Assembly: GCA_034231615.1 (NCBI GenBank)
Contig: CM067306.1
Location: 63,598,813-63,662,812, forward strand
DNA: 64,000 nucleotides
Direction: 5' to 3'
From: Meghimatium bilineatum
Lineage: Eukaryota; Mollusca; Gastropoda; Stylommatophora; Philomycidae
Position numbers and translations under genes: made by a program. Numbering within the stretch: the first letter of the stretch is position 1; each line of letters starts with the position of its first letter. Under the pieces are notes generated by a model. It ran no database searches. It was given only the letters and a program-made list of their open reading frames with translations, and was not told the origin of the DNA. Positions 8,160-58,479 of the stretch are shown here, piece by piece.

Positions 8160-8301
8160 ATATTCATGCTAGAGAAAGATTTGACAGAGGCTCAGAAAGC
8201 TGCTGGATTGCCTCCCATCTTGGCAACTACAGAAGACATCGAAATGCCTATGTCGCCAAGTAAACCTACACCTCTTGTCAGAACTACTCGCAGTGTTGTA
8301 G
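8160..8301 (+). CDS. PPP1R9A-like: Neurabin-like exon 6 (end of coiled coil)
   Basis: A 142-nt exon between gatgctcag and gtaagt, phase 0 in and 1 out. It opens IFMLEKDLTEAQKAAGLPPI, finishing the coiled coil, then turns into a Pro/Ser/Thr-rich linker with MSPSKPTP. A 36-bp minisatellite starts about 17 nt after its donor. Confidence 0.87.
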
Positions 8302-8318
8302 GTAAGTCATATCATTCA

Positions 8319-9326
8319 TAACTTTCATGTGACAGAGACTAGAGTATATTTATATAACTTTCATGTGACAGAGACTAGAGTATATTTATATAACTTTCAT
8401 GTGACAGAGACTGGGGTATATTTATATAACTTTCATGTGACAGAGACTGGAGTATATTTATATAACTTTCATGTGACAGAGACTAGAGTATATTTATATA
8501 ACTTTCATGTGACAGAGACTAGAGTATATTTATATAACTTTCATGTGACAGAGACTGGGGTATATTTATATAACTTTCATGTGACAGAGACTGGAGTATA
8601 TTTATATAACTTTCATGTGACAGAGACTGGAGTATATTTATATAACTTTCATGTGACAGAGACTGGGGTATATTTATATAACTTTCATGTGACAGAGACT
8701 GGAGTATATTTATATAACTTTCATGTGACAGAGACTAGAGTATATTTATATAACTTTCATGTGACAGAGACTGGAGTATATTTATATAACTTTCATGTGA
8801 CAGAGACTGGGGTATATTTATATAACTTTCATGTGACAGAGACTGGAGTATATTTATATAACTTTCATGTGACAGAGACTAGAGTATATTTATATAACTT
8901 TCATGTGACAGAGACTGGAGTATATTTATATAACTTTCATGTGACAGAGACTGGGGTATATTTATATAACTTTCATGTGACAGAGACTGGAGTATATTTA
9001 TATAACTTTCATGTGACAGAGACTAGAGTATATTTATATAACTTTCATGTGACAGAGACTGGAGTATATTTATATAACTTTCATATGACAGAGACTGGGG
9101 TATATTTATATAACTTTCATGTGACAGAGACTGGAGTATATTTATATAACTTTCATGTGACAGAGACTAGAGTATATTTATATAACTTTCATGTGACAGA
9201 GACTGGAGTATATTTATATAACTTTCATGTGACAGAGACTAGAGTATATTTATATAACTTTCATGTGACAGAGACTGGGGTATATTTATATAACTTTCAT
9301 GTGACAGAGACTGGAGTATATTTATG
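8319..9326. repeat. 36-bp minisatellite, 28 copies
   Basis: Unit contains catgtgacagagact and tatatttatataactt. Variant bases after gact (aga, gga or ggg) define a higher-order pattern. The unit is a multiple of 3 without stops, so it leaves a 356-codon open frame that is not a gene. Confidence 0.97.
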
Positions 9327-13122: not shown

Positions 13123-13641
13123 TGTATGGTTTATTACACTATAAGCTCTTATAATGTCTAACAACATTACAAAGCAGAGATGTATGGTGATATAATATAC
13201 ACTATAAGCTCTTATAATGTCTAACAACATTACAAAGCAGAGATGTATGGTGATATAATATACACTATAAGCTCTTATAATGTCTAACAACATTACAAAG
13301 CAGAGATGTATGGTGATATAATATACACTATAAGCTCTTATAATGTCTAACAACATTACAAAGCAGAGATGTATGGTGATATAATATACACTATAAGCTC
13401 TTATAATGTCTAACAACATTACAAAGCAGAGATGTATGGTGATATAATATACACTATAAGCTCTTATAATGTCTAACAACATTACAAAGCAGAGATGTAT
13501 GGTGATATAATATACACTATAAGCTCTTATAATGTCTAACAACATTACAAAGCAGAGATGTATGGTGATATAATATACACTATAAGCTCTTATAATGTCT
13601 AACAACATTACAAAACAGAGATGTATGGTGAGAGGCACTAT
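13123..13641. repeat. 63-bp minisatellite, about 8 copies
   Basis: ataagctcttataatgtcta recurs every 63 bp. Ends about 95 nt before exon 8. Its open - strand frame is an artefact of unit length. Confidence 0.97.
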
Positions 13642-14649: not shown

Positions 14650-14770
14650 GCTAGAGTTTGAAGCCTTGCTAAACTCATCAAACTTGCCAGAGACCTCATT
14701 CAGAGATAAGAATAACCTACCCATATCAGGTAACATTGGAAACAGACATCATGCAGCCAGGAAGATTAAG
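14650..14770 (+). CDS. PPP1R9A-like: Neurabin-like exon 9 (linker)
   Basis: A 121-nt exon, phase 2 in and 0 out, between cttaccag and gtacta. It starts RLEFEALLNSSNLPETSFRD and ends HHAARKIK. The donor GTACTA is weaker than the others; an in-frame GTAACA at about 14730 is a possible alternative donor, but would break the phase with exon 10. Confidence 0.78.
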
Positions 14771-15002: not shown

Positions 15003-16062
15003 CGTCATTCATAACTGGACCTCTACATACCGTTATTTCATTCATAACTGGACCTCTACATACCGTTATTTCATTCATAACTGGACCTCTACATACCGTT
15101 ATTTCATTCATAACTGGACCTCTACATACCGTTATTTCATTCATAACTGGACCTCTACATACCGTTATTTCATTCATAACTGGACCTCTACATACCGTTA
15201 TTTCATTCATGACTGGACCTCTACATACCGTTATTTCATTCATGACTGGACCTCTACATACCGTTATTTCATTCATAACTGGACCTCTACATACCGTTAT
15301 TTCATTCATAACTGGACCTCTACATACCGTTATTTCATTCATGACTGGACCTCTACATACCGTTATTTCATTCATAACTGGACCTCTACATACCGTTATT
15401 TCTTTCATGACTGGACCTCTGCATACCATAATTTCATTCATGACTGGACCTCTACATATCGTTATTTCATTCATAACTGGACCTCTACATACCGTTATTT
15501 CATTCATAACTGGACCTCTACATACCGTTATTTCATTCATAACTGGACCTCTACATACCGTTATTTCATTCATAACTGGACCTCTACATACCGTTATTTC
15601 ATTCATGACTGGACCTCTACATACCGTTATTTCATTCATAACTGGACCTCTACATACCGTTATTTCTTTCATGACTGGACCTCTGCATACCATAATTTCA
15701 TTCATGACTGGACCTCTACATATCGTTATTTCATTCATAACTGGACCTCTACATACCGTTATTTCATTCATAACTGGACCTCTACATACCGTTATTTCAT
15801 TCATAACTGGACCTCTACATACCGTTATTTCATTCATGACTGGACCTCTACATACCGTTATTTCATTCATAACTGGACCTCTACATACCGTTATTTTATT
15901 CATAACTGGACCTCTACATACCGTTATTTCATTCATAACTGGACCTCTACATACCGTTATTTCATTCATAACTGGACCTCTACATACCGTTATTTCATTC
16001 ATAACTGGACCTCTACATACCGTTATTTCATTCATAACTGGACCTCTACATACCGTAATTTT
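15003..16062. repeat. 33-bp minisatellite, about 32 copies
   Basis: cattcataactggacctcta recurs every 33 bp. A marked variant (ctctgcataccataa) occurs at 15417 and again 264 bp later. Three frames stay open over more than 1 kb for arithmetic reasons. Confidence 0.97.
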
Positions 16063-16152
16063 ATTGATAATATTTATCTACCTTCATTTCATTTATAGCA
16101 TCATTGATTTCAGCAATCAAATCACTTCCATTGTTTTCATTTTTCTGATTAG

Positions 16153-17249: not shown

Positions 17250-17402
17250 AATTATAGCTTTAATAATAAGACCCATAGCCCGTGAGGGTCACCACTATAG
17301 CTTTAATAATAAGACCCATAGCCCGTGAGGGTCACCACTATAGCTTTAATAATAAGACCCATAGCCCGTGAGGGTCACCACTATAGCTTTAATAATAAGA
17401 CT
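17250..17402. repeat. 43-bp tandem repeat, about 3.5 copies
   Basis: tagctttaataataagaccc recurs at 17255, 17298 and 17341. Confidence 0.93.
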
Positions 17403-17779: not shown

Positions 17780-18600
17780 ACCTCCACTTTTATAGCAAAT
17801 TCTAAATGATCATCGTCAAGTGTCATCTCCAAAGATTGGCTGCAACAGACCTTCAACATCTTCTGTCTCTTGCTTTCATGGTACACTCTGCTGGACTGTA
17901 TAGTAACCATCTTGTCATGTTTCCCTCGCACTTGTATTTCTGCCCACCTCTTGCTTTCATGGTACACTCTGCTGGACTGTATAGTAACCATCTTGTCATG
18001 TTTCCCTCGCACTTGTATTTCTGCCCACCTCTTGCTTTCATGGTACACTCTGCTGGACTGTATAGTAACCATCTTGTCATGTTTCCCTCGCACTTGTATT
18101 TCTGCCCACCTCTTGCTTTCATGGTACACTCTGCTGGACTGTATAGTAACCATCTTGTCATGTTTCCCTCGCACTTGTATTTCTGCCCACCTCTTGCTCG
18201 TCTCCCCGTAACTCTGCCTTCAAGTAAGGACTTCAGTAAGATGTTTTGTCTTTTGGTATGTCCAATATATTTCATGTGTTTGATTTTTATTTACTTTAAT
18301 AGGTTCTGTTTTCTCATTTGCAGTGTTTCCAGAACTCTTTGTTTTCTTCTTCCACGAAGCTCGCCATATTATTCTATGTTCCACATCTCAAAAGCATCAA
18401 TTCTGTCTTAAAATTGTTTGTTTTTGTCCATGTTTCTGAGCCATACATTAATATAGAATAGATGTAGCATTTTATAATTCTCATTTTTAACTTGTTTGTA
18501 GTTTGTTTAGATGTTACTATTTTCCACATATCATTGAAAGTACTTTTAGCCATTCCTGTTCCCCATTTTAACTTCTGTTTCACATCTGCCATCATTTGTG
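17780..18600 (-). mobile_element. LINE C-terminal fragment containing a minisatellite
   Basis: On the - strand, 18595-18375 reads an ORF2 end with KCYIYSILMYGSETWT, then EGRVTGRRARGGQKYK at about 18220-18165, then TMKARDRRCW at the 3' end. These blocks are in the order expected for a LINE ORF2 C-terminus. Between the last two lies a fourfold 81-bp tandem expansion. Confidence 0.8.
17867..18195. repeat. 81-bp tandem repeat x 4 within a LINE ORF
   Basis: ctcttgctttcatggtacac recurs every 81 bp; the unit is coding-phase neutral. See the LINE entry. Confidence 0.96.
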
Positions 18601-21389: not shown

Positions 21390-21780
21390 TCTATCTATGA
21401 TCCGTCAGCGCGAATACGGTACATTGGGCAGAAACTAGACCTCTCCATTTCGAGCGATGTGATGCTACTCTGTAATTCTTGCATGTTGTTGAGACCCATA
21501 GTCATACCCTCTTTGACGGTTCTGTGAAGAGTCTCTTGTGGTCGTCCTCTTTTTCTTTCGCCACTTGGTACCCATTTTAAAGTTTGTAGTGGCAGTCTGC
21601 TGTCATTCATTCTTAGTACATGTCCGATATAAGCCCATCGTTTTCTTCTTATTGTTGTAGAAACATATCGCTGTTTGGTGTCTTCTCTTACTTGCTTGTT
21701 TGACTTGAATTCCTCCCAACCAATATTTAAGAGTGACCAAATATGCAAAGTGACCAATGAAAGAATTGAATCAGTCAAAT
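21390..21780 (-). mobile_element. LINE ORF2 C-terminal fragment
   Basis: Open on the - strand: WEEFKSNKQVREDTKQ, then RRKRWAYIGHVLRMNDSRLP, then GERKRGRPQETLHRTVKE. The RRRRWxxIGHVLR...KRGRPxxT pattern is the standard C-terminal end of many LINE ORF2 proteins. No RT domain is attached, so it is 5'-truncated. Confidence 0.85.
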
Positions 21781-21906
21781 CAACAAAGATGAATGATTAT
21801 ATTTTGTTTTTTGCTTTCAGTTCACACATATATATTTCAACTAATTTTTACTGATGTAGAAATTTAGAATCAAAAGTGCATGTTACACACAGGTATTTAA
21901 TAATGC

Positions 21907-24900
21907 GTGTTACGGGAGGTCTATATGGAAGTTTTGTTATGGGAGGTCTATATGGAAGTTTTGTTATGGGAGGTCTGTATGAAAGTTTTGTTATGGGAGG
22001 TCTGTATGGAAACTTTGTCATGGGAGGTCTGTATGGAAACTTTGTTATGGGAGGTCTGTATGGAAACTTTGTTATGGGAGGTCTGTAGGGAAGTTTTGTT
22101 ATGGGAGGTCTGTATGGAAACTTTGTTATGGGAGGTCTGTATGGAAACTTTGTTATGGGAGGTCTGTATGGAAACTTTGTTATGGGAGGTCTGTATGGAA
22201 GTTTTGTTATGGGAGGTCTGTATGGAAACTTTGTTATGGGAGGTCTGTATGGAAACTTTGTTATGGGAGGTCTGTATGGAAACTTTGTTATGGGAGGTCT
22301 GTATGGAAACTTTGTTATGGGAGGTCTGTATGGAAACTTTGTTATGGGAGGTCTGTATGGAAACTTTGTTATGGGAGGTCTGTATGGAAACTTTGTTATG
22401 GGAGGTCTGTATGGAAACTTTGTTATGGGAGGTCTGTATGGAAACTTTGTTATGGGAGGTCTGTATGAAAGTTTTGTTATGGGAGGTCTGTATGAAAGTT
22501 TTGTTATGGGAGGTCTGTATGAAAGTTTTGTTATGGGAGGTCTGTATGAAAGTTTTGTTATGGGAGGTCTGTATGAAAGTTTTGTTATGGGAGGTCTGTA
22601 TGAAAGTTTTGTTATGGGAGGTCTGTATGAAAGTTTTGTTATGGGAGGTCTGTATGGAAACTTTGTTATGGGAGGTCTGTATGAAAGTTTTGTTATGGGA
22701 GGTCTGTATGAAAGTTTTGTTATGGGAGGTCTGTATGAAAGTTTTGTTATGGGAGGTCTGTATGGAAACTTTGTTATGGGAGGTCTGTATGGAAACTTTG
22801 TTATGGGAGGTCTGTATGGAAACTTTGTTATGGGAGGTCTGTATGAAAGTTTTGTTATGGGAGGTCTGTATGAAAGTTTTGTTATGGGAGGTCTGTATGG
22901 AAACTTTGTTATGGGAGGTCTGTATGGAAACTTTGTTATGGGAGGTCTGTATGGAAACTTTGTTATGGGAGGTCTGTATGGAAACTTTGTTATGGGAGGT
23001 CTGTATGGAAACTTTGTTATGGGAGGTCTGTATGGAAACTTTGTTATGGGAGGTCTGTATGGAAACTTTGTTATGGGAGGTCTGTATGGAAACTTTGTTA
23101 TGGGAGGTCTGTATGGAAACTTTGTTATGGGAGGTCTGTATGGAAACTTTGTTATGGGAGGTCTGTATGGAAATTTTGTTATGGGAGGTCTGTATGGAAA
23201 CTTTGTTATGGGAGGTCTGTATGGAAACTTTGTTATGGGAGGTCTGTATGGAAACTTTGTTATGGGAGGTCTGTATGGAAACTTTGTTATGGGAGGTCTG
23301 TATGGAAACTTTGTTATGGGAGGTCTGTATGGAAACTTTGTTATGGGAGGTCTGTATGGAAACTTTGTTATGGGAGGTCTGTATGGAAACTTTGTTATGG
23401 GAGGTCTGTATGGAAACTTTGTTATGGGAGGTCTGTATGAAAGTTTTGTTATGGGAGGTCTGTATGAAAGTTTTGTTATGGGAGGTCTGTATGAAAGTTT
23501 TGTTATGGGAGGTCTGTATGAAAGTTTTGTTATGGGAGGTCTGTATGAAAGTTTTGTTATGGGAGGTCTGTATGAAAGTTTTGTTATGGGAGGTCTGTAT
23601 GGAAACTTTGTTATGGGAGGTCTGTATGAAAGTTTTGTTATGGGAGGTCTGTATGAAAGTTTTGTTATGGGAGGTCTGTATGAAAGTTTTGTTATGGGAG
23701 GTCTGTATGGAAACTTTGTTATGGGAGGTCTGTATGGAAACTTTGTTATGGGAGGTCTGTATGGAAACTTTGTTATGGGAGGTCTGTATGGAAACTTTGT
23801 TATGGGAGGTCTGTATGAAAGTTTTGTTATGGGAGGTCTGTATGAAAGTTTTGTTATGGGAGGTCTGTATGGAAACTTTGTTATGGGAGGTCTGTATGGA
23901 AACTTTGTTATGGGAGGTCTGTATGGAAACTTTGTTATGGGAGGTCTGTATGGAAACTTTGTTATGGGAGGTCTGTATGGAAACTTTGTTATGGGAGGTC
24001 TGTATGGAAACTTTGTTATGGGAGGTCTGTATGGAAACTTTGTTATGGGAGGTCTGTATGGAAACTTTGTTATGGGAGGTCTGTATGGAAACTTTGTTAT
24101 GGGAGGTCTGTATGAAAGTTTTGTTATGGGAGGTCTGTATGAAAGTTTTGTTATGGGAGGTCTGTATGGAAACTTTGTTATGGGAGGTCTGTATGGAAAC
24201 TTTGTTATGGGAGGTCTGTATGGAAACTTTGTTATGGGAGGTCTGTATGGAAACTTTGTTATGGGAGGTCTGTATGGAAACTTTGTTATGGGAGGTCTGT
24301 ATGGAAACTTTGTTATGGGAGGTCTGTATGGAAACTTTGTTATGGGAGGTCTGTATGGAAGTTTTGTTATGGGAGGTCTGTATGGAAACTTTGTTATGGG
24401 AGGTCTGTATGGAAACTTTGTTATGGGAGGTCTGTATGGAAACTTTGTTATGGGAGGTCTGTATGGAAACTTTGTTATGGGAGGTCTGTATGGAAACTTT
24501 GTTATGGGAGGTCTGTATGGAAACTTTGTTATGGGAGGTCTGTATGGAAACTTTGTTATGGGAGGTCTGTATGAAAGTTTTGTTATGGGAGGTCTGTATG
24601 AAAGTTTTGTTATGGGAGGTCTGTATGAAAGTTTTGTTATGGGAGGTCTGTATGAAAGTTTTGTTATGGGAGGTCTGTATGAAAGTTTTGTTATGGGAGG
24701 TCTGTATGAAAGTTTTGTTATGGGAGGTCTGTATGAAAGTTTTGTTATGGGAGGTCTGTATGAAAGTTTTGTTATGGGAGGTCTGTATGGAAACTTTGTT
24801 ATGGGAGGTCTGTATGAAAGTTTTGTTATGGGAGGTCTGTATGAAAGTTTTGTTATGGGAGGTCTGTATGAAAGTTTTGTTATGGGAGGTCTGTATGGAA

Positions 24901-27900
24901 ACTTTGTTATGGGAGGTCTGTATGGAAACTTTGTTATGGGAGGTCTGTATGGAAACTTTGTTATGGGAGGTCTGTATGAAAGTTTTGTTATGGGAGGTCT
25001 GTATGAAAGTTTTGTTATGGGAGGTCTGTATGGAAACTTTGTTATGGGAGGTCTGTATGGAAACTTTGTTATGGGAGGTCTGTATGGAAACTTTGTTATG
25101 GGAGGTCTGTATGGAAACTTTGTTATGGGAGGTCTGTATGGAAACTTTGTTATGGGAGGTCTGTATGGAAACTTTGTTATGGGAGGTCTGTATGGAAACT
25201 TTGTTATGGGAGGTCTGTATGGAAACTTTGTTATGGGAGGTCTGTATGGAAACTTTGTTATGGGAGGTCTGTATGGAAACTTTGTTATGGGAGGTCTGTA
25301 TGGAAACTTTGTTATGGGAGGTCTGTATGGAAACTTTGTTATGGGAGGTCTGTATGAAAGTTTTGTTATGGGAGGTCTGTATGAAAGTTTTGTTATGGGA
25401 GGTCTGTATGAAAGTTTTGTTATGGGAGGTCTGTATGAAAGTTTTGTTATGGGAGGTCTGTATGAAAGTTTTGTTATGGGAGGTCTGTATGGAAACTTTG
25501 TTATGGGAGGTCTGTATGAAAGTTTTGTTATGGGAGGTCTGTATGAAAGTTTTGTTATGGGAGGTCTGTATGAAAGTTTTGTTATGGGAGGTCTGTATGG
25601 AAACTTTGTTATGGGAGGTCTGTATGGAAACTTTGTTATGGGAGGTCTGTATGGAAACTTTGTTATGGGCGGTCTGTATGGAAACTTTGTTATGGGAGGT
25701 CTGTATGAAAGTTTTGTTATGGGAGGTCTGTATGAAAGTTTTGTTATGGGAGGTCTGTATGGAAACTTTGTTATGGGAGGTCTGTATGGAAACTTTGTTA
25801 TGGGAGGTCTGTATGGAAACTTTGTTATGGGAGGTCTGTATGGAAACTTTGTTATGGGAGGTCTGTATGGAAACTTTGTTATGGGAGGTCTGTATGGAAA
25901 CTTTGTTATGGGAGGTCTGTATGGAAACTTTGTTATGGGAGGTCTGTATGGAAACTTTGTTATGGGAGGTCTGTATGGAAACTTTGTTATGGGAGGTCTG
26001 TATGAAAGTTTTGTTATGGGAGGTCTGTATGAAAGTTTTGTTATGGGAGGTCTGTATGAAAGTTTTGTTATGGGAGGTCTGTATGAAAGTTTTGTTATGG
26101 GAGGTCTGTATGAAAGTTTTGTTATGGGAGGTCTGTATGAAAGTTTTGTTATGGGAGGTCTGTATGGAAACTTTGTTATGGGAGGTCTGTATGAAAGTTT
26201 TGTTATGGGAGGTCTGTATGAAAGTTTTGTTATGGGAGGTCTGTATGGAAACTTTGTTATGGGAGGTCTGTATGGAAACTTTGTTATGGGAGGTCTGTAT
26301 GGAAACTTTGTTATGGGAGGTCTGTATGGAAACTTTGTTATGGGAGGTCTGTAGGAAAGTTTTGTTATGGGAGGTCTGTATGAAAGTTTTGTTATGGGAG
26401 GTCTGTATGGAAACTTTGTTATGGGAGGTCTGTATGGAAACTTTGTTATGGGAGGTCTGTATGGAAACTTTGTTATGGGAGGTCTGTATGGAAACTTTGT
26501 TATGGGAGGTCTGTATGGAAACTTTGTTATGGGAGGTCTGTATGGAAACTTTGTTATGGGAGGTCTGTATGGAAACTTTGTTATGGGAGGTCTGTATGGA
26601 AACTTTGTTATGGGAGGTCTGTATGGAAACTTTGTTATGGGAGGTCTGTATGAAAGTTTTGTTATGGGAGGTCTGTATGAAAGTTTTGTTATGGGAGGTC
26701 TGTATGGAAACTTTGTTATGGGAGGTCTGTATGGAAACTTTGTTATGGGAGGTCTGTATGGAAACTTTGTTATGGGAGGTCTGTATGGAAACTTTGTTAT
26801 GGGAGGTCTGTATGGAAACTTTGTTATGGGAGGTCTGTATGGAAACTTTGTTATGGGAGGTCTGTATGGAAACTTTGTTATGGGAGGTCTGTATGGAAGT
26901 TTTGTTATGGGAGGTCTGTATGGAAACTTTGTTATGGGAGGTCTGTATGGAAACTTTGTTATGGGAGGTCTGTATGGAAACTTTGTTATGGGAGGTCTGT
27001 ATGGAAACTTTGTTATGGGAGGTCTGTATGGAAACTTTGTTATGGGAGGTCTGTATGGAAACTTTGTTATGGGAGGTCTGTATGGAAACTTTGTTATGGG
27101 AGGTCTGTATGGAAACTTTGTTATGGGAGGTCTGTATGAAAGTTTTGTTATGGGAGGTCTGTATGAAAGTTTTGTTATGGGAGGTCTGTATGAAAGTTTT
27201 GTTATGGGAGGTCTGTATGAAAGTTTTGTTATGGGAGGTCTGTATGAAAGTTTTGTTATGGGAGGTCTGTATGAAAGTTTTGTTATGGGAGGTCTGTATG
27301 AAAGTTTTGTTATGGGAGGTCTGTATGGAAACTTTGTTATGGGAGGTCTGTATGAAAGTTTTGTTATGGGAGGTCTGTATGAAAGTTTTGTTATGGGAGG
27401 TCTATATGAAAGTTTTGTTATGGGAGGTCTGTATGGAAACTTTGTTATGGGAGGTCTGTATGGAAACTTTGTTATGGGAGGTCTGTATGGAAACTTTGTT
27501 ATGGGAGGTCTGTATGAAAGTTTTGTTATGGGAGGTCTGTATGAAAGTTTTGTTATGGGAGGTCTGTATGGAAACTTTGTTATGGGAGGTCTGTATGGAA
27601 ACTTTGTTATGGGAGGTCTGTATGGAAACTTTGTTATGGGAGGTCTGTATGGAAACTTTGTTATGGGAGGTCTGTATGGAAACTTTGTTATGGGAGGTCT
27701 GTATGGAAACTTTGTTATGGGAGGTCTGTATGGAAACTTTGTTATGGGAGGTCTGTATGGAAACTTTGTTATGGGAGGTCTGTATGGAAACTTTGTTATG
27801 GGAGGTCTGTATGGAAACTTTGTTATGGGAGGTCTGTATGGAAACTTTGTTATGGGAGGTCTGTATGGAAACTTTGTTATGGGAGGTCTGTATGAAAGTT

Positions 27901-30092
27901 TTGTTATGGGAGGTCTGTATGAAAGTTTTGTTATGGGAGGTCTGTATGAAAGTTTTGTTATGGGAGGTCTGTATGAAAGTTTTGTTATGGGAGGTCTGTA
28001 TGAAAGTTTTGTTATGGGAGGTCTGTATGGAAACTTTGTTATGGGAGGTCTGTATGAAAGTTTTGTTATGGGAGGTCTGTATGAAAGTTTTGTTATGGGA
28101 GGTCTGTATGAAAGTTTTGTTATGGGAGGTCTGTATGGAAACTTTGTTATGGGAGGTCTGTATGGAAACTTTGTTATGGGAGGTCTGTATGGAAACTTTG
28201 TTATGGGAGGTCTGTATGGAAACTTTGTTATGGGAGGTCTGTATGAAAGTTTTGTTATGGGAGGTCTGTATGAAAGTTTTGTTATGGGAGGTCTGTATGG
28301 AAACTTTGTTATGGGAGGTCTGTATGGAAACTTTGTTATGGGAGGTCTGTATGGAAACTTTGTTATGGGAGGTCTGTATGGAAACTTTGTTATGGGAGGT
28401 CTGTATGGAAACTTTGTTATGGGAGGTCTGTATGGAAACTTTGTTATGGGAGGTCTGTATGGAAACTTTGTTATGGGAGGTCTGTATGGAAACTTTGTTA
28501 TGGGAGGTCTGTATGGAAACTTTGTTATGGGAGGTCTGTATGGAAACTTTGTTATGGGAGGTCTGTATGAAAGTTTTGTTATGGGAGGTCTGTATGAAAG
28601 TTTTGTTATGGGAGGTCTGTATGAAAGTTTTGTTATGGGAGGTCTGTATGAAAGTTTTGTTATGGGAGGTCTGTATGAAAGTTTTGTTATGGGAGGTCTG
28701 TATGAAAGTTTTGTTATGGGAGGTCTGTATGGAAACTTTGTTATGGGAGGTCTGTATGAAAGTTTTGTTATGGGAGGTCTGTATGAAAGTTTTGTTATGG
28801 GAGGTCTGTATGAAAGTTTTGTTATGGGAGGTCTGTATGGAAACTTTGTTATGGGAGGTCTGTATGGAAACTTTGTTATGGGAGGTCTGTATGGAAACTT
28901 TGTTATGGGAGGTCTGTATGGAAACTTTGTTATGGGAGGTCTGTATGAAAGTTTTGTTATGGGAGGTCTGTATGAAAGTTTTGTTATGGGAGGTCTGTAT
29001 GGAAACTTTGTTATGGGAGGTCTGTATGGAAACTTTGTTATGGGAGGTCTGTATGGAAACTTTGTTATGGGAGGTCTGTATGGAAACTTTGTTATGGGAG
29101 GTCTGTATGGAAACTTTGTTATGGGAGGTCTGTATGGAAACTTTGTTATGGGAGGTCTGTATGGAAACTTTGTTATGGGAGGTCTGTATGGAAACTTTGT
29201 TATGGGAGGTCTGTATGAAAGTTTTGTTATGGGAGGTCTGTATGAAAGTTTTGTTATGGGAGGTCTGTATGGAAACTTTGTTATGGGAGGTCTGTATGGA
29301 AACTTTGTTATGGGAGGTCTGTATGGAAACTTTGTTATGGGAGGTCTGTATGGAAACTTTGTTATGGGAGGTCTGTATGGAAACTTTGTTATGGGAGGTC
29401 TGTATGGAAACTTTGTTATGGGAGGTCTGTATGGAAACTTTGTTATGGGAGGTCTGTATGGAAACTTTGTTATGGGAGGTCTGTATGGAAGTTTTGTTAT
29501 GGGAGGTCTGTATGGAAACTTTGTTATGGGAGGTCTGTATGGAAACTTTGTTATGGGAGGTCTGTATGGAAACTTTGTTATGGGAGGTCTGTATGGAAAC
29601 TTTGTTATGGGAGGTCTGTATGGAAACTTTGTTATGGGAGGTCTGTATGGAAACTTTGTTATGGGAGGTCTGTATGGAAACTTTGTTATGGGAGGTCTGT
29701 ATGGAAACTTTGTTATGGGAGGTCTGTATGGAAACTTTGTTATGGGAGGTCTGTATGGAAACTTTGTTATGGGAGGTCTGTATGGAAACTTTGTTATGGG
29801 AGGTCTGTATGGAAACTTTGTTATGGGAGGTCTGTATGGAAACTTTGTTATGGGAGGTCTGTATGGAAACTTTGTTATGGGAGGTCTGTATGGAAACTTT
29901 GTTATGGGAGGTCTGTATGGAAACTTTGTTATGGGAGGTCTGTATGGAAACTTTGTTATGGGAGGTCTGTATGGAAACTTTGTTATGGTAGGTCTGTATG
30001 GAAACTTTGTTATGGGAGGTCTGTCTGTATGGAAACTTTGTTATGGGAGGTCTGTATGGAAGTTTTGTTATGGGAGGTCTGTATGGAAACTT
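21907..30092. repeat. 8.2-kb minisatellite of 27-bp units (~303 copies) with nested order
   Basis: Unit begins tatgggaggtctgtatg and ends in one of three variants: gaaactttgt (N), aaagttttgt (E) or gaagttttgt (S). Runs of N and E follow a repeated grammar and S marks a level of about 2.2-2.6 kb. Because 27 is divisible by 3 and the unit lacks stops in several frames, frames of up to 2,694 codons result. They have no start context or family signature and lie inside an intron of the neurabin-like gene, so they are not genes. Confidence 0.98.
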
Positions 30093-30099
30093 TGTTACT

Positions 30100-38289: not shown

Positions 38290-38625
38290 CTGTTAGTAAC
38301 TTGCCAAAGATTTTGCATTTGGGATTGAAGCTATTTATTACTTAGTTCAAGCTAATAATACAATTATATCAAAGATTCAACTTAGCCATATTGATGGCCA
38401 TATCATAGAAATATTCTATGAACAGTGCCAAGTTCATCAACAGACAGTCTAGTAGCTCAAGTATAAGCAGAAAATTTAGATGAGATTGTTGAATTCTTGG
38501 AGTCGAAATCTAACCAGATTGGCTTGTCTTAAAATGTAACCTCTGTACCTTAGTGTATAATAAACTTCACATAGAACTTTATAATTAATATGACATACCT
38601 GGTATTTCTATTTTATTGCGGTAGG
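38290..38625. other. Intron segment
   Basis: Nothing recognised. Confidence 0.4.
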
Positions 38626-39235
38626 TTTAGTATTAGCTTTAGGTTTTAGATTAGGATTATGTTTGAGATTAGCGTTAGGTTTGAGATTAGGGTTAGGTTT
38701 GAGATTAGCGTTAGGTTTGAGATTAGGGTTAGGTTTGAGATTAGGGTTAGGTTTGAGATTAGTGTTAGGTTTGAGATTAGGGTTAGGTTTGAGATTAAGG
38801 TTAGGTTTGAGATTAGTGTTAGATTTGAGATTAGGGTTAGGTTTGAGATTAGGGTTAGGTTTGAGATTAAGGTTACGTTAGGTTTGAGATTAGGGTTATG
38901 TTTGAGAATAGGGTTAGGTTTAGCATTGGGTTAAGGGTTAGGTATATGGTTAGGGTTAGGTTTAGAGTTGGGGTTAGGTTTTAAGAGTTGGGTTTTAGGA
39001 ATAGGTTTGAGGTTAGGTTTAGTGTTAGGGTTAGATTTAGGTTTAATTTTATGGTTAGCTTTAGGGTCCAGTATTATGGTTGGGGTTAGGTTTTAAGTTA
39101 GGTTTAGGGTTAGATTTAGGTTTATGGTTAGGTTTAGGGTGCAGTATTAGGGTTGGGGTTAGGTTTTAAGTTAGGTTTAGGGTTAGATTTTGGGTTAGGG
39201 TTAGGTTTGAGTTTAGGATTAGGGTAGAGTATCAA
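38625..39235. repeat. Telomere-like degenerate tract (18-bp units and TTAGGG-like hexamers)
   Basis: The left half is about 14 copies of gattagggttaggtttga; the right half is a looser mix of ttaggg, ttaggt and tttaggg. Each 18-bp unit equals three hexamers derived from TTAGGG, the common metazoan telomere repeat. Confidence 0.85.
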
Positions 39236-39433: not shown

Positions 39434-39631
39434 TGATGGCACAGTCAGGAAAAGTGAGTTCAAAAAGAGAAAACAGTCCCAGCAGACTACAGATGTCAAT
39501 GCCCCTCCCATATCCCCTATCACCACCCAAATTATATCCCCAGTCAATCATAGCCAAGCAACTGTTGCTAAACCTCCTGTTGCTCCTAAACCATTCAGAT
39601 CAGTCAGCCACATCAGCCCGCAGTTGTCTAG
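39434..39631 (+). CDS. PPP1R9A-like: Neurabin-like exon 11 (basic, Pro-rich linker)
   Basis: A 198-nt exon between aatttcag and gtaaca, phase 2-2. The split AG|T Ser codon joins exon 10. It starts SDGTVRKSEFKKRKQSQQ, then a Pro-rich part with PPISPITTQIISP and KPPVAPKPFR. The PxAPKPFR segment resembles an SH3-ligand-like proline motif (inference). Confidence 0.8.
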
Positions 39632-44918: not shown

Positions 44919-45097
44919 GAAAGATGACAGCAACTCGGACACGTCATCTGTCTCACAAACATCCTACAATCCTAGCAGCTCCAGCTTCAAGGTCGGTAGC
45001 TCAGAAATCGCTGACACAGCAACAGATGATGCTTCCACTAACAGCGACGGTGGGGGAGTTACTCTGGTGTCAGCCAAAGCATCATCGTCTGCTCACG
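44919..45097 (+). CDS. PPP1R9A-like: Neurabin-like exon 12 (Ser-rich linker)
   Basis: A 179-nt exon between gtttcctatag and gtgagt, phase 2 in and 1 out. It starts RKDDSNSDTSSVSQTSYNPS and ends SAKASSSAH. Highly Ser/Thr/Asp-rich, probably disordered. Confidence 0.82.
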
Positions 45098-45679: not shown

Positions 45680-45978
45680 TTTGATTAATTGATTAGACTT
45701 GTCCAGAGGTCATAGGTTAATTGATTAGACTTTTCCAGAGGTCATAGGTTAATTGATTAGACTTGTCCAGAGGTCATAGGTTAATTGATTAGACTTGTCC
45801 AGCGGTCATAGGTTAATTGATTAGACTTGTCCAGAGGCTATAGGTTAATTGATTAGACTTGTCCAGAGGTCATGGGTTAATTGATTAGACTTGTCCAGAG
45901 GTCATGGGTTAATTGATTAGACTTGTCCAGAGGTCATGGGTTAATTGATTAGATGTGTCCAGAGCTCTTGGGTTAATT
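45680..45978. repeat. 32-bp tandem repeat, about 9 copies
   Basis: ttaattgattagacttgtcc and agaggtcat recur. Confidence 0.95.
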
Positions 45979-45979
45979 T

Positions 45980-46425
45980 ATTAGACAATAGTTTTTCAGA
46001 GCCAATTTGTTGCTTATTTAGGCATGGACTTTCCCAGAGGTTATCAGTTGGTTGTTTAGACATTACTTAAACAGATTATAATAACATTTACCATAATTTC
46101 ATTGGTCTAGTAATAACATGAAATGTTCTCTATTCCACAATGCTTTGTAAGTCGTGTGGAACATATCTCATAATTTATCAGTGGGACAGTCGAGGAGAAG
46201 AGGGGAACAAAGAAAATTGATGAATTTAAAATATTACGGTTGAGAACAGATGTTCATGGCTATATTTTTCTGCTGTTACTAAAGTGGCATTCATACGGCC
46301 CTGAAGGGTTATGTTTTATGATGATGATGAATTTGTATAAATGAATGATGTTGACGAAGTGAGCTGACTGCATAATGACTGCTGTATGTGCATGTATAGT
46401 CTCGTAGCAAGCCCAGTTTTTTTCA
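45980..46425. other. Intron segment
   Basis: Nothing recognised apart from (ATG)n near 46319. Confidence 0.4.
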
Positions 46426-54544: not shown

Positions 54545-55257
54545 CGAGGCGTGTTCAAATGAAAACGGGACTTGTGGATTTATTTAAAAAGTATCATACG
54601 CAATTTAATATTTTCAACGGAATTGAACAAAGCAACCACTTGTGAATAAGAATGCACCTAGGTTCATCAGAAAAAATCTCCGTATGCATTTAGGCAAGCA
54701 TCCCACTGTTTAGGTAGACGTTGAATGCCGTCCGAGAAAAAGTTGCGTGGCTGTTCTTACACGCAATTGGGCTGTCCCAATTGACATATGGAATTCTTCT
54801 GCAAGCGAACGAATGCTCCGACGACGGTCAGTCAGTACTGCTTTATCAAGCACGGCTATGGCTTCTTCTGTTGCAACAATATGCGCCTGACCTGGCCGTG
54901 CAAGATCTGCCGTTAACTCACGTCCGTCTTTAAACATACGCACCCACTCCATCACTCTGGTCCTCGACAAACATTTGTCACCATATGCTGCCTTCATTCT
55001 CCGATGAATGTCTACTGCTTGACATCCTTCAAATGAAAGAAACTGGATCACAGCACGCTGATTCACTTTGGACGGGTTCGGAATCACACCCGCCATATTG
55101 TTAACAGTCTTCTGCAGCACATATGCATGCTGGGAAGATGAACACGTGACCGTATGTAAATTATTGGATACTCATTACTAGTGCAAAATGTCATCAATAT
55201 CAGTGCGCTCTATCACGCGTGGTGTAACAAGTCCCGTTTTCATTTGAACACGCCTTG
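54545..55257 (-). mobile_element. Internally deleted mariner element, TA duplication
   Basis: TA at 54543-54544 and 55258-55259. Inverted ends of about 30 bp: CGAGGCGTGTTCAAATGAAA at left and CAAGGCGTGTTCAAATGAAA as reverse complement at right. At 713 bp it is about half the usual ~1.3 kb of mariners. Confidence 0.88.
54664..55120 (-). pseudogene. mariner transposase, N- and C-terminus only
   Basis: From 55102 on the - strand (MAGVIPNPSKVNQRAVIQF) it reads the N-terminal helix-turn-helix region, with EGCQAVDIHRRMKAAYGDKC and WVRMFKDGRELTADLARPGQ, and a second HTH ending EEFHMSIGTAQ. It then jumps, out of frame, to the extreme C-terminus, readable in another frame as DGIQRLPKQWDACLNAYGDF. The whole DDD catalytic core is missing, so it cannot encode an active enzyme. 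It could be mobilised only by a related source. Confidence 0.88.
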
Positions 55258-57782: not shown

Positions 57783-57867
57783 AGGTTTATATTTAAAATA
57801 ATATAATTTATTTAATTGAACTTGAGTGCTTTGATTTCAATGTTGCTTGTTATTCTAATTCAAACAG

Positions 57868-58041
57868 GGCCATTCAGCTTCCAATAAACATCAACTTCAG
57901 TCAGGTTCAATAACTGAGTGGAGTACTGAGAATGTGTGTCAGTGGCTTGCTTCCCTTGAGTTGGAGAGGTATGCAGCCTCGTTCAGGGACAAGAGTATCA
58001 CAGGAAGTCAGTTGTTGAATCTGGACAGCTCCAAGTTGAAG
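57868..58041 (+). CDS. PPP1R9A-like: Neurabin-like exon 15 (SAM domain, first part)
   Basis: A 174-nt phase 0-0 exon between tcaaacag and gtcagt. After a short linker it reads EWSTENVCQWLASLELERYA and then a segment ending in LLNLDSSKLK, which is helix 1 to helix 4 of a SAM domain (the conserved W..E.V..WL..L.L..Y..F and LL.L). SAM domains mediate self-association; in neurabin-1 this is the C-terminal domain that spinophilin lacks (established knowledge). A 44-bp array of about 20 copies ends some 88 nt upstream. Confidence 0.92.
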
Positions 58042-58087
58042 GTCAGTAAGTGTGTGGTTGCGCGTGTGTGTGAGAATGAGAGAGACA

Positions 58088-58160
58088 AAGATGTATGTAC
58101 CTACCTGTCTACCTACATATGTATGTACCTACCTGTCTACCTACATATGTATGTACCCAC
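58088..58160. repeat. ACCT/ATGT-type microsatellite
   Basis: ctacctgtctacctacatat repeated; it resumes at about 58480-58535 after the LINE insertion. Confidence 0.9.
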
Positions 58161-58164
58161 CTAT

Positions 58165-58479
58165 AGTTAGTTAGTTAGTCGTTGGATCATCGTCATTGCA
58201 CTCCGGACAAGTCCATAGGTGCTCAGATCTTTCCTTGAGTGTATCCGCCATTACACGTTGACTGACAGTCCCAGTACGTTGTTGATTGACCATCATTCTT
58301 TTTCGCCCACGAAAACTCTCCTTTCTAGCGACACCACATTTCAAACCAAGTTCCTTTATTCTAATCATGGAACAAGAGTCATCGTCACTTGTACAGTCAT
58401 TTGTTCGTGCGTTTTCACGTAGGGCATTCAAAATATCTGCCCGATCCATCGCTCCTCCAACAGCCGTAGTAGCAGCGTA
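58165..58479 (-). mobile_element. 5'-truncated LINE with 12-bp target duplication and (CTAA)n tail
   Basis: GTACCCACCTAT occurs at 58153-58164 and 58480-58491. The 315-bp insert has agttagttagttagt at its left, which as reverse complement is a 3' (CTAA)n tail. On the - strand it encodes AMDRADILNALRENART and ends SEHLWTCPECNDDDPTTN, a Cys-containing ORF2 tail. The frame is open throughout, so it is probably a young insertion. Confidence 0.88.

Follow-up and report, generated by a model that had tools for sequence, protein, structure and literature searches.

A 27-bp minisatellite at 21908..30092 on the + strand of the window, that is, of the whole 64-kb stretch of DNA analysed here, is ordered on three levels, its units forming runs, its runs forming blocks, and its blocks forming superblocks. 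This three-level order is real; it had been claimed in a preliminary description and is upheld both by the grammar of the runs and by shuffle tests. The array is very likely a non-coding and probably intronic minisatellite whose pattern records its own growth by events on two scales, and it is best explained as a clear instance of an already known type of array, produced via ordinary block copying and deletion. An array of two main unit types that has undergone very little point mutation shows the steps of its growth cleanly: the lengths of the runs record slippage, and the repeated blocks record large exchanges. All of the unit strings given below are based on a single assembly of one individual.

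Unit types and the grammar of the runs

TRF reports one 27-bp array in the window, at 21908-30097, with 303.2 copies and 97% matches. Its division into units, each of which was named by its full sequence, gives 303 units over 21908-30092 (8.2 kb), and these head-to-tail 27-bp copies are what is understood by a minisatellite (VNTR). The units comprise 194 of class N, 94 of class E, five of class S, and ten variants that occur only once; 288 of the 303 have exactly the N or the E sequence. N and E, which end in TATGGAAACTT and TATGAAAGTTT, respectively, differ at 3 of their 27 bases and are the two main types, with S, which ends in TATGGAAGTTT, in addition to them. When up to three mismatches are allowed, the window contains 303 matches to the unit, a number equal to that of the units of the array, and at least 200 of these matches lie inside it. 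A pattern scan of viral contigs gave 0 matches to the unit.

One of the single-copy variants, unit b, is N up to position 24 and E-like at position 25. Both b and S are N on their left side and E on their right side, and, inside the array, each is flanked by N runs on both sides. Near the 3' end of the array is a 31-bp unit, h, with four extra bases. At the 5' edge, the units x, y, and a share an S-like ending, GGAAGTTT, and these three had been overlooked when S-type endings were first described.

The unit-by-unit variant string, all of it on the + strand, has the A, B, and C blocks as originally claimed. The 5' edge (21908..22177) has ten units, including the four single-copy variants x, y, z, and a, and reads x y E N z N a N3; then comes the first S unit (22178..22204), with which superblock 1 begins, and N9. 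In superblock 1, block A1 (22448..23419) reads E7 N E3 N3 E2 N10-b-N9, and block C1 (23420..24364) reads E6 N E3 N4 E2 N9 E2 N7 S, with the second S unit (24338-24364) at its end and N7 after it. Superblock 2 is made up of A2 (24554..25336; E8 N E3 N3 E2 N12), B2 (25337..25984; E5 N E3 N4 E2 N9, with variant c at 25661), and C2 (25985..26902; E6 N E2 N4 E2 N9 E2 N7 S, with variant d at 26336 and the third S unit at 26876), followed by N8. Superblock 3 is made up of A3 (27119..27874; E7 N E3 N3 E2 N12, with variant f at 27389), B3 (27875..28549; E5 N E3 N4 E2 N10), and C3 (28550..29494; E6 N E3 N4 E2 N8 E2 N8 S, with the fourth S unit at 29468). In the C blocks, S and a run of N7-8 thus come ahead of the next A. 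The 3' edge (29495..30092) consists of N18, the variants g and h, a fifth S unit at 30039, and a last N.

In this run string, variants c (in B2), d (in C2), and f (in A3) are counted within their own class; the classes used in the preliminary description hold, although these single-copy variants inside the runs had escaped it. Similarly, the four S units then listed do exist, with starts at 22178, 24338, 26876, and 29468 and with a spacing of 80, 94, and 96 units that the unit split reproduces, but the fifth, near the 3' edge, was missed. The N20 attributed to superblock 1 is indeed a long N run, but one that actually consists of N10, variant b, and N9.

The order of the runs is not random. 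In a run-order test, in which run lengths were shuffled within their class 20000 times, none of the shuffles equalled the longest repeated run order of the array, which extends over 27 consecutive runs that agree within one unit when shifted by 20 runs (the superblock), and the longest in the shuffles was 14; the score at the 20-run shift was likewise matched in 0 of 20000. At the 6-run shift, which corresponds to the block, 30 of 51 pairs match, and this was equalled in one of the 20000 shuffles. A fixed-lag test, which is a cruder measure and suffers from changes in run length, again distinguishes the superblock (0 of 2000 at lags 88-99; 10 of 2000 when the observed maximum may be reached at any lag between 15 and 149) and is weak at the level of the block (107 of 2000 at lags 22-31). 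Moreover, superblocks 2 and 3 are 5 units apart in class-only edit distance, compared to a minimum of 17 in 2000 shuffles, and, at a distance of 5 over 94-96 units, these superblocks form a higher-order repeat in the general sense of the term.

Probable copying of the superblock and probable loss of block B

Superblocks 2 and 3 are nearly identical: they differ by six run-length changes, each of one unit, and by the three variants c, d, and f, each private and found only once, or around 0.12% of 2538 bp. Since there are six run changes for three point differences, units were gained or lost here no less often than point mutations occurred. The event that copied the superblock was probably recent. 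Two pairs among the six changes compensate each other, as switches of a boundary would, a result that 26% of random draws reach.

Superblock 1 has only 80 units and is without most of block B. An unequal crossover between A and B (the theory of unequal crossover is reportedly that of Smith, 1976, as cited in PMC10118999) had been proposed as the cause. The loss of B by unequal exchange or deletion is supported by what follows; however, an in-register exchange between A and B would leave N9-12, not N20, and the N20 therefore needs a different breakpoint, near the end of the N12 of A and at the end of the last E of B. In a scan of all possible one-deletion conversions of superblock 2 or 3 into superblock 1, each tried at five cut points within the unit (c, d, and f being folded into their classes), one 16-unit deletion from superblock 2 brought the distance to superblock 1 down from 20 edits to 3. 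This deletion extends from the 11th N of the N12 of A through the last E of B, with the cut after position 24, and its junction recreates the exact unit b, with N10 to the left and N9 to the right, as observed. Unit b (23150..23176) is a candidate for the junction left by the loss of block B. The next-best junctions from superblock 2, some of them without b, leave 4 edits, and the best distance from superblock 3 is also 4, with 30 tied solutions, with and without b. These results support the derivation of the short superblock 1 from a superblock 2-like form by one 16-unit deletion. Alternatively, unit b can have arisen by point mutation in an N unit or can be an old intermediate between S and N.

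Another possibility is that the A-C form is the older one and that block B arose later by a duplication of the left part of C, which B resembles (E5-6 N E3 N4 E2 N9). This is rather unlikely: after one tandem duplication of 8-40 units, superblock 1 is still 11 edits away from superblock 2 and 11-12 away from superblock 3, a score in unit edits in which the contraction of eight N units counts as 8, so that deletion beats duplication by about one event when events are counted. Moreover, such a duplication leaves unit b unexplained.

It is also conceivable that the array is real but that its tandem superblocks are alleles, or overlaps between reads, that the assembly laid end to end. Superblocks 2 and 3 do differ about as two alleles would, with three point differences plus six changes of run length by one unit each, and the 8.2 kb of near-identical units speaks in the same sense. 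However, the superblocks differ from one another in their run lengths and in their private variants (b in superblock 1, c and d in superblock 2, and f in superblock 3), and superblock 1 differs in its make-up in a way that one deletion explains; a change of a whole 27-bp unit is, in addition, not a usual base-calling error. Such an artefact is improbable, even though alleles placed in tandem could carry these same differences. If the array were confirmed in reads, it would lend itself well, as a natural case, to testing how higher-order repeats arise outside centromeres.

A candidate host gene and the question of function

The window carries candidate exons and many other small arrays, and TRF arrays cover 37% of it. 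Six open stretches bounded by AG and GT on the + strand were picked by eye from the open frames, without a gene finder. Three of them precede the array (2173-2301, 8160-8301, and 14650..14770, the nearest found upstream), and three come after it (39434..39631, the nearest found downstream, 44919-45097, and 57901..58041). The last of these would encode the first part of a neurabin-1-like SAM domain: it matches Pfam SAM_2 with an E-value of 2e-11 (scanned as 57859-58167), and, in a comparison with solved structures, liprin-beta-1 came top by total score (E 1.1e-8) and neurabin-1 by best single stretch (E 2.2e-8). The other five candidate exons, scanned within longer stretches, gave no Pfam match above the curated cut-off, and NCBIfam gave 0 of 6 matches for a set of six stretches, five taken from the six candidate exons and the sixth a different open stretch. 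For a coiled-coil-like exon, the best E-value against solved structures was only 0.29 (GCN4).

Since the array lies between 14770 and 39434, with candidate exons on both sides, it is likely to be intronic, and we infer that it is probably in an intron of a + strand gene that has a neurabin-like SAM exon downstream. The array had been called intronic outright. The flanking splice-bounded stretches, one of them with a SAM domain, agree with this, but only two of the five neighbouring exon pairs join in phase (2173-2301 with 8160-8301, and 39434-39631 with 44919-45097), and the remaining three would need further exons.

A function in cis, for example one that is enhancer-like or based on R-loops, with the superblock as the unit of selection, is very improbable. 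It would be in keeping with the excess of G over C on the + strand (GC skew of 0.68-0.70 in the four 2-kb bins of 22001-30000) and with the + strand location of the inferred gene, a G-rich + strand together with a + strand gene being favourable to R-loops. However, neither strand folds into a hairpin (minimum energy of 0 in four of four pieces of four units), there is no Rfam match at the gathering threshold in the window, and neutral growth yields a similar order in toy runs (see below). The array presumably lacks a function. The idea of a hairpin-forming unit was rejected on these energies of 0, and that of an origin from a structured RNA or a tRNA on the lack of an Rfam match at the gathering threshold and on the finding of no tRNA.

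Least probable of all is a coding array, in which a long protein of nine-residue repeats would have its pattern under selection: 27 bp is divisible by 3, one + frame is open for 2694 codons, a second + frame for 1417 and 1244 codons, and the - strand for 907, but several frames open simultaneously are expected from the unit length and composition, the 31-bp unit near the 3' end breaks the frame, the change from N to E swaps two residues (GN to ES) in the second + frame, and many nearby arrays have periods that are not divisible by 3; a coding repeat was rejected on the first two of these counts.

Growth of the array and known tandem repeats

The growth of a non-coding array by events on two scales would combine the frequent gain or loss of one unit within runs of identical units, by slippage or unequal sister exchange, with the rare duplication or deletion of long blocks via misaligned recombination. 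Firstly, a block of about 25 units would have been duplicated to give A, B, and C; secondly, the A-B-C superblock would have been duplicated in tandem; thirdly, superblock 1 would have lost about 16 units, with the terminal N run of A becoming fused to the terminal N run of B.

Toy neutral simulations, with 200 arrays per setting, suggest that selection is unnecessary for such a hierarchy, as a matter of plausibility only, since their settings were arbitrary (arrays of more than 600 were cut to 300, and arrays that lost a unit type were restarted). The arrays with at least 20 runs were scored for the 27-run match. With slippage of 1-3 units alone, two of 200 arrays kept at least 20 runs, and the match occurred in neither. 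With block events at 2% and 5%, the match was found in 0 of 41 and 0 of 94 arrays with at least 20 runs; at 10, 20, and 50%, it was found in 10 of 131, 27 of 139, and 80 of 158. The longest exact unit string is a poor measure in these simulations, slippage alone having reached it in one of the two arrays that kept at least 20 runs.

It is possible, if somewhat doubtful, that b and S are both scars of recombination, left where an N run crossed over with the end of an E run, with b marking the loss of block B and S marking an older loss that preceded the copying of the superblock. S could be an older scar of the same kind as b, or it could be an ancestral unit. Old units tend to survive at the edges of arrays, and S may be ancestral because the edges of this array carry the S-like ending. 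If the reading as scars were true, the block lengths and the scars together would make one haplotype readable as an ordered history of exchange.

The array had also been described as centromere-like. This was rejected, given that there are too few unit types (288 of 303 units being exactly N or E) and that it is run length that marks position. In the higher-order repeats of alpha-satellite, the monomers within one repeat diverge by tens of percent, with a distinct sequence at each position; human alpha-satellite forms very long arrays at centromeres, from monomers of around 171 bp that fall into many sequence types. The likeness is in the tandem superunits of tandem monomers, with superunits that are far more alike than a random order would make them; the difference is that the present array consists of 8.2 kb of a 27-bp unit with two main types, apparently in an intron. 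Unlike in a centromeric higher-order repeat, the monomer positions do not differ much more than the superunits.

Human MSY1 (DYF155S1) is, according to an extract of its description, an array of a 25-bp unit, predicted to form a hairpin, with homogeneous blocks of variants and length mutants of one to three units; 145 of the 159 alleles in the sample described have the simple order 1-3-4, with around 73 units (PMC2599865). An extract of another paper mentions block duplications in some MSY1 and INS alleles (PMC2674676). As far as these extracts go, the present array resembles MSY1 in its homogeneous runs of variant units, its length changes in small steps, and its probable block duplications, the small steps here being the six one-unit changes between copies within one array, not between alleles. 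It differs in that its runs recur at two further levels and in that its 27-bp unit has no hairpin fold.

The hornerin array is located in coding sequence. An extract describes it as a gene-internal quartic higher-order repeat, with a 39-bp unit and nested levels up to 1.4 kb (PMC9584774). To judge from this extract, the two arrays are alike in lying inside a gene, apparently so in the present case, with a short unit and several nested levels; in hornerin, however, the levels are of nine, two, and two units, whereas those of the 27-bp array are patterns in the run lengths of two unit types. Among the titles and abstract openings listed in small searches of open papers, none was found to concern a three-level intronic minisatellite. 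The 27-bp array alone does not change the accepted picture of the evolution of tandem repeats.

Signs of block copying also appear elsewhere in the window. Five other arrays, drawn from 17 TRF rows (16 arrays, one of them at two periods), were tested for repeated unit strings. Three have no excess of block repeats (140, 379, and 755 of 2000 shuffles gave strings as long), 15005-16070 is marginal (25 of 2000), and 8318-9325 is clear (2 of 2000). In a lag test of the 17 TRF rows, 21 of 500 shuffles equalled 38622-39223 (period 36), and likewise 45685-45986, while each of the other 15 rows was equalled by at least 30 of 500. Repeated strings thus occur in other arrays, and block copying is therefore not special to the 27-bp array.

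Tandem-repeat content of the window

Arrays detected by TRF occupy 37% of the window (1-64000), and in several of them, such as those at 13135-13631, 17253-17401 and 17867-18198, the units are near-perfect, so that the region is rich in minisatellites of young appearance.

Telomere-like hexamers and transposon-like open stretches

TRF also reports a degenerate array of telomere-like hexamers of the TAGGTT/TTAGGG type (38622-39223), with periods of 18, 36 and 73 bp.

Directly ahead of the 27-bp array, a minus-strand open stretch (21398-21796) could be taken by eye for the end portion of a reverse transcriptase from a LINE; a Pfam scan of this stretch gave no match. Another minus-strand open stretch (54713-55171) shows a resemblance to HTH_48, a domain found in mariner transposases of the Mos1 type, at a level (E-value 0.0015) that falls short of Pfam's cut-off.

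Unit order in the 36-bp and 33-bp arrays

The 36-bp TRF array at 8318-9325 (28 copies) begins 17 bp past the final base of 8160-8301, a candidate exon picked by eye, and within it the four-unit order ACAB recurs (the letters here denote unit variants within each array). Inside the 33-bp TRF array at 15005-16070 (32 copies), an eight-unit block is tandemly duplicated, and both copies of this block carry the two rare variants of the array, C and D.
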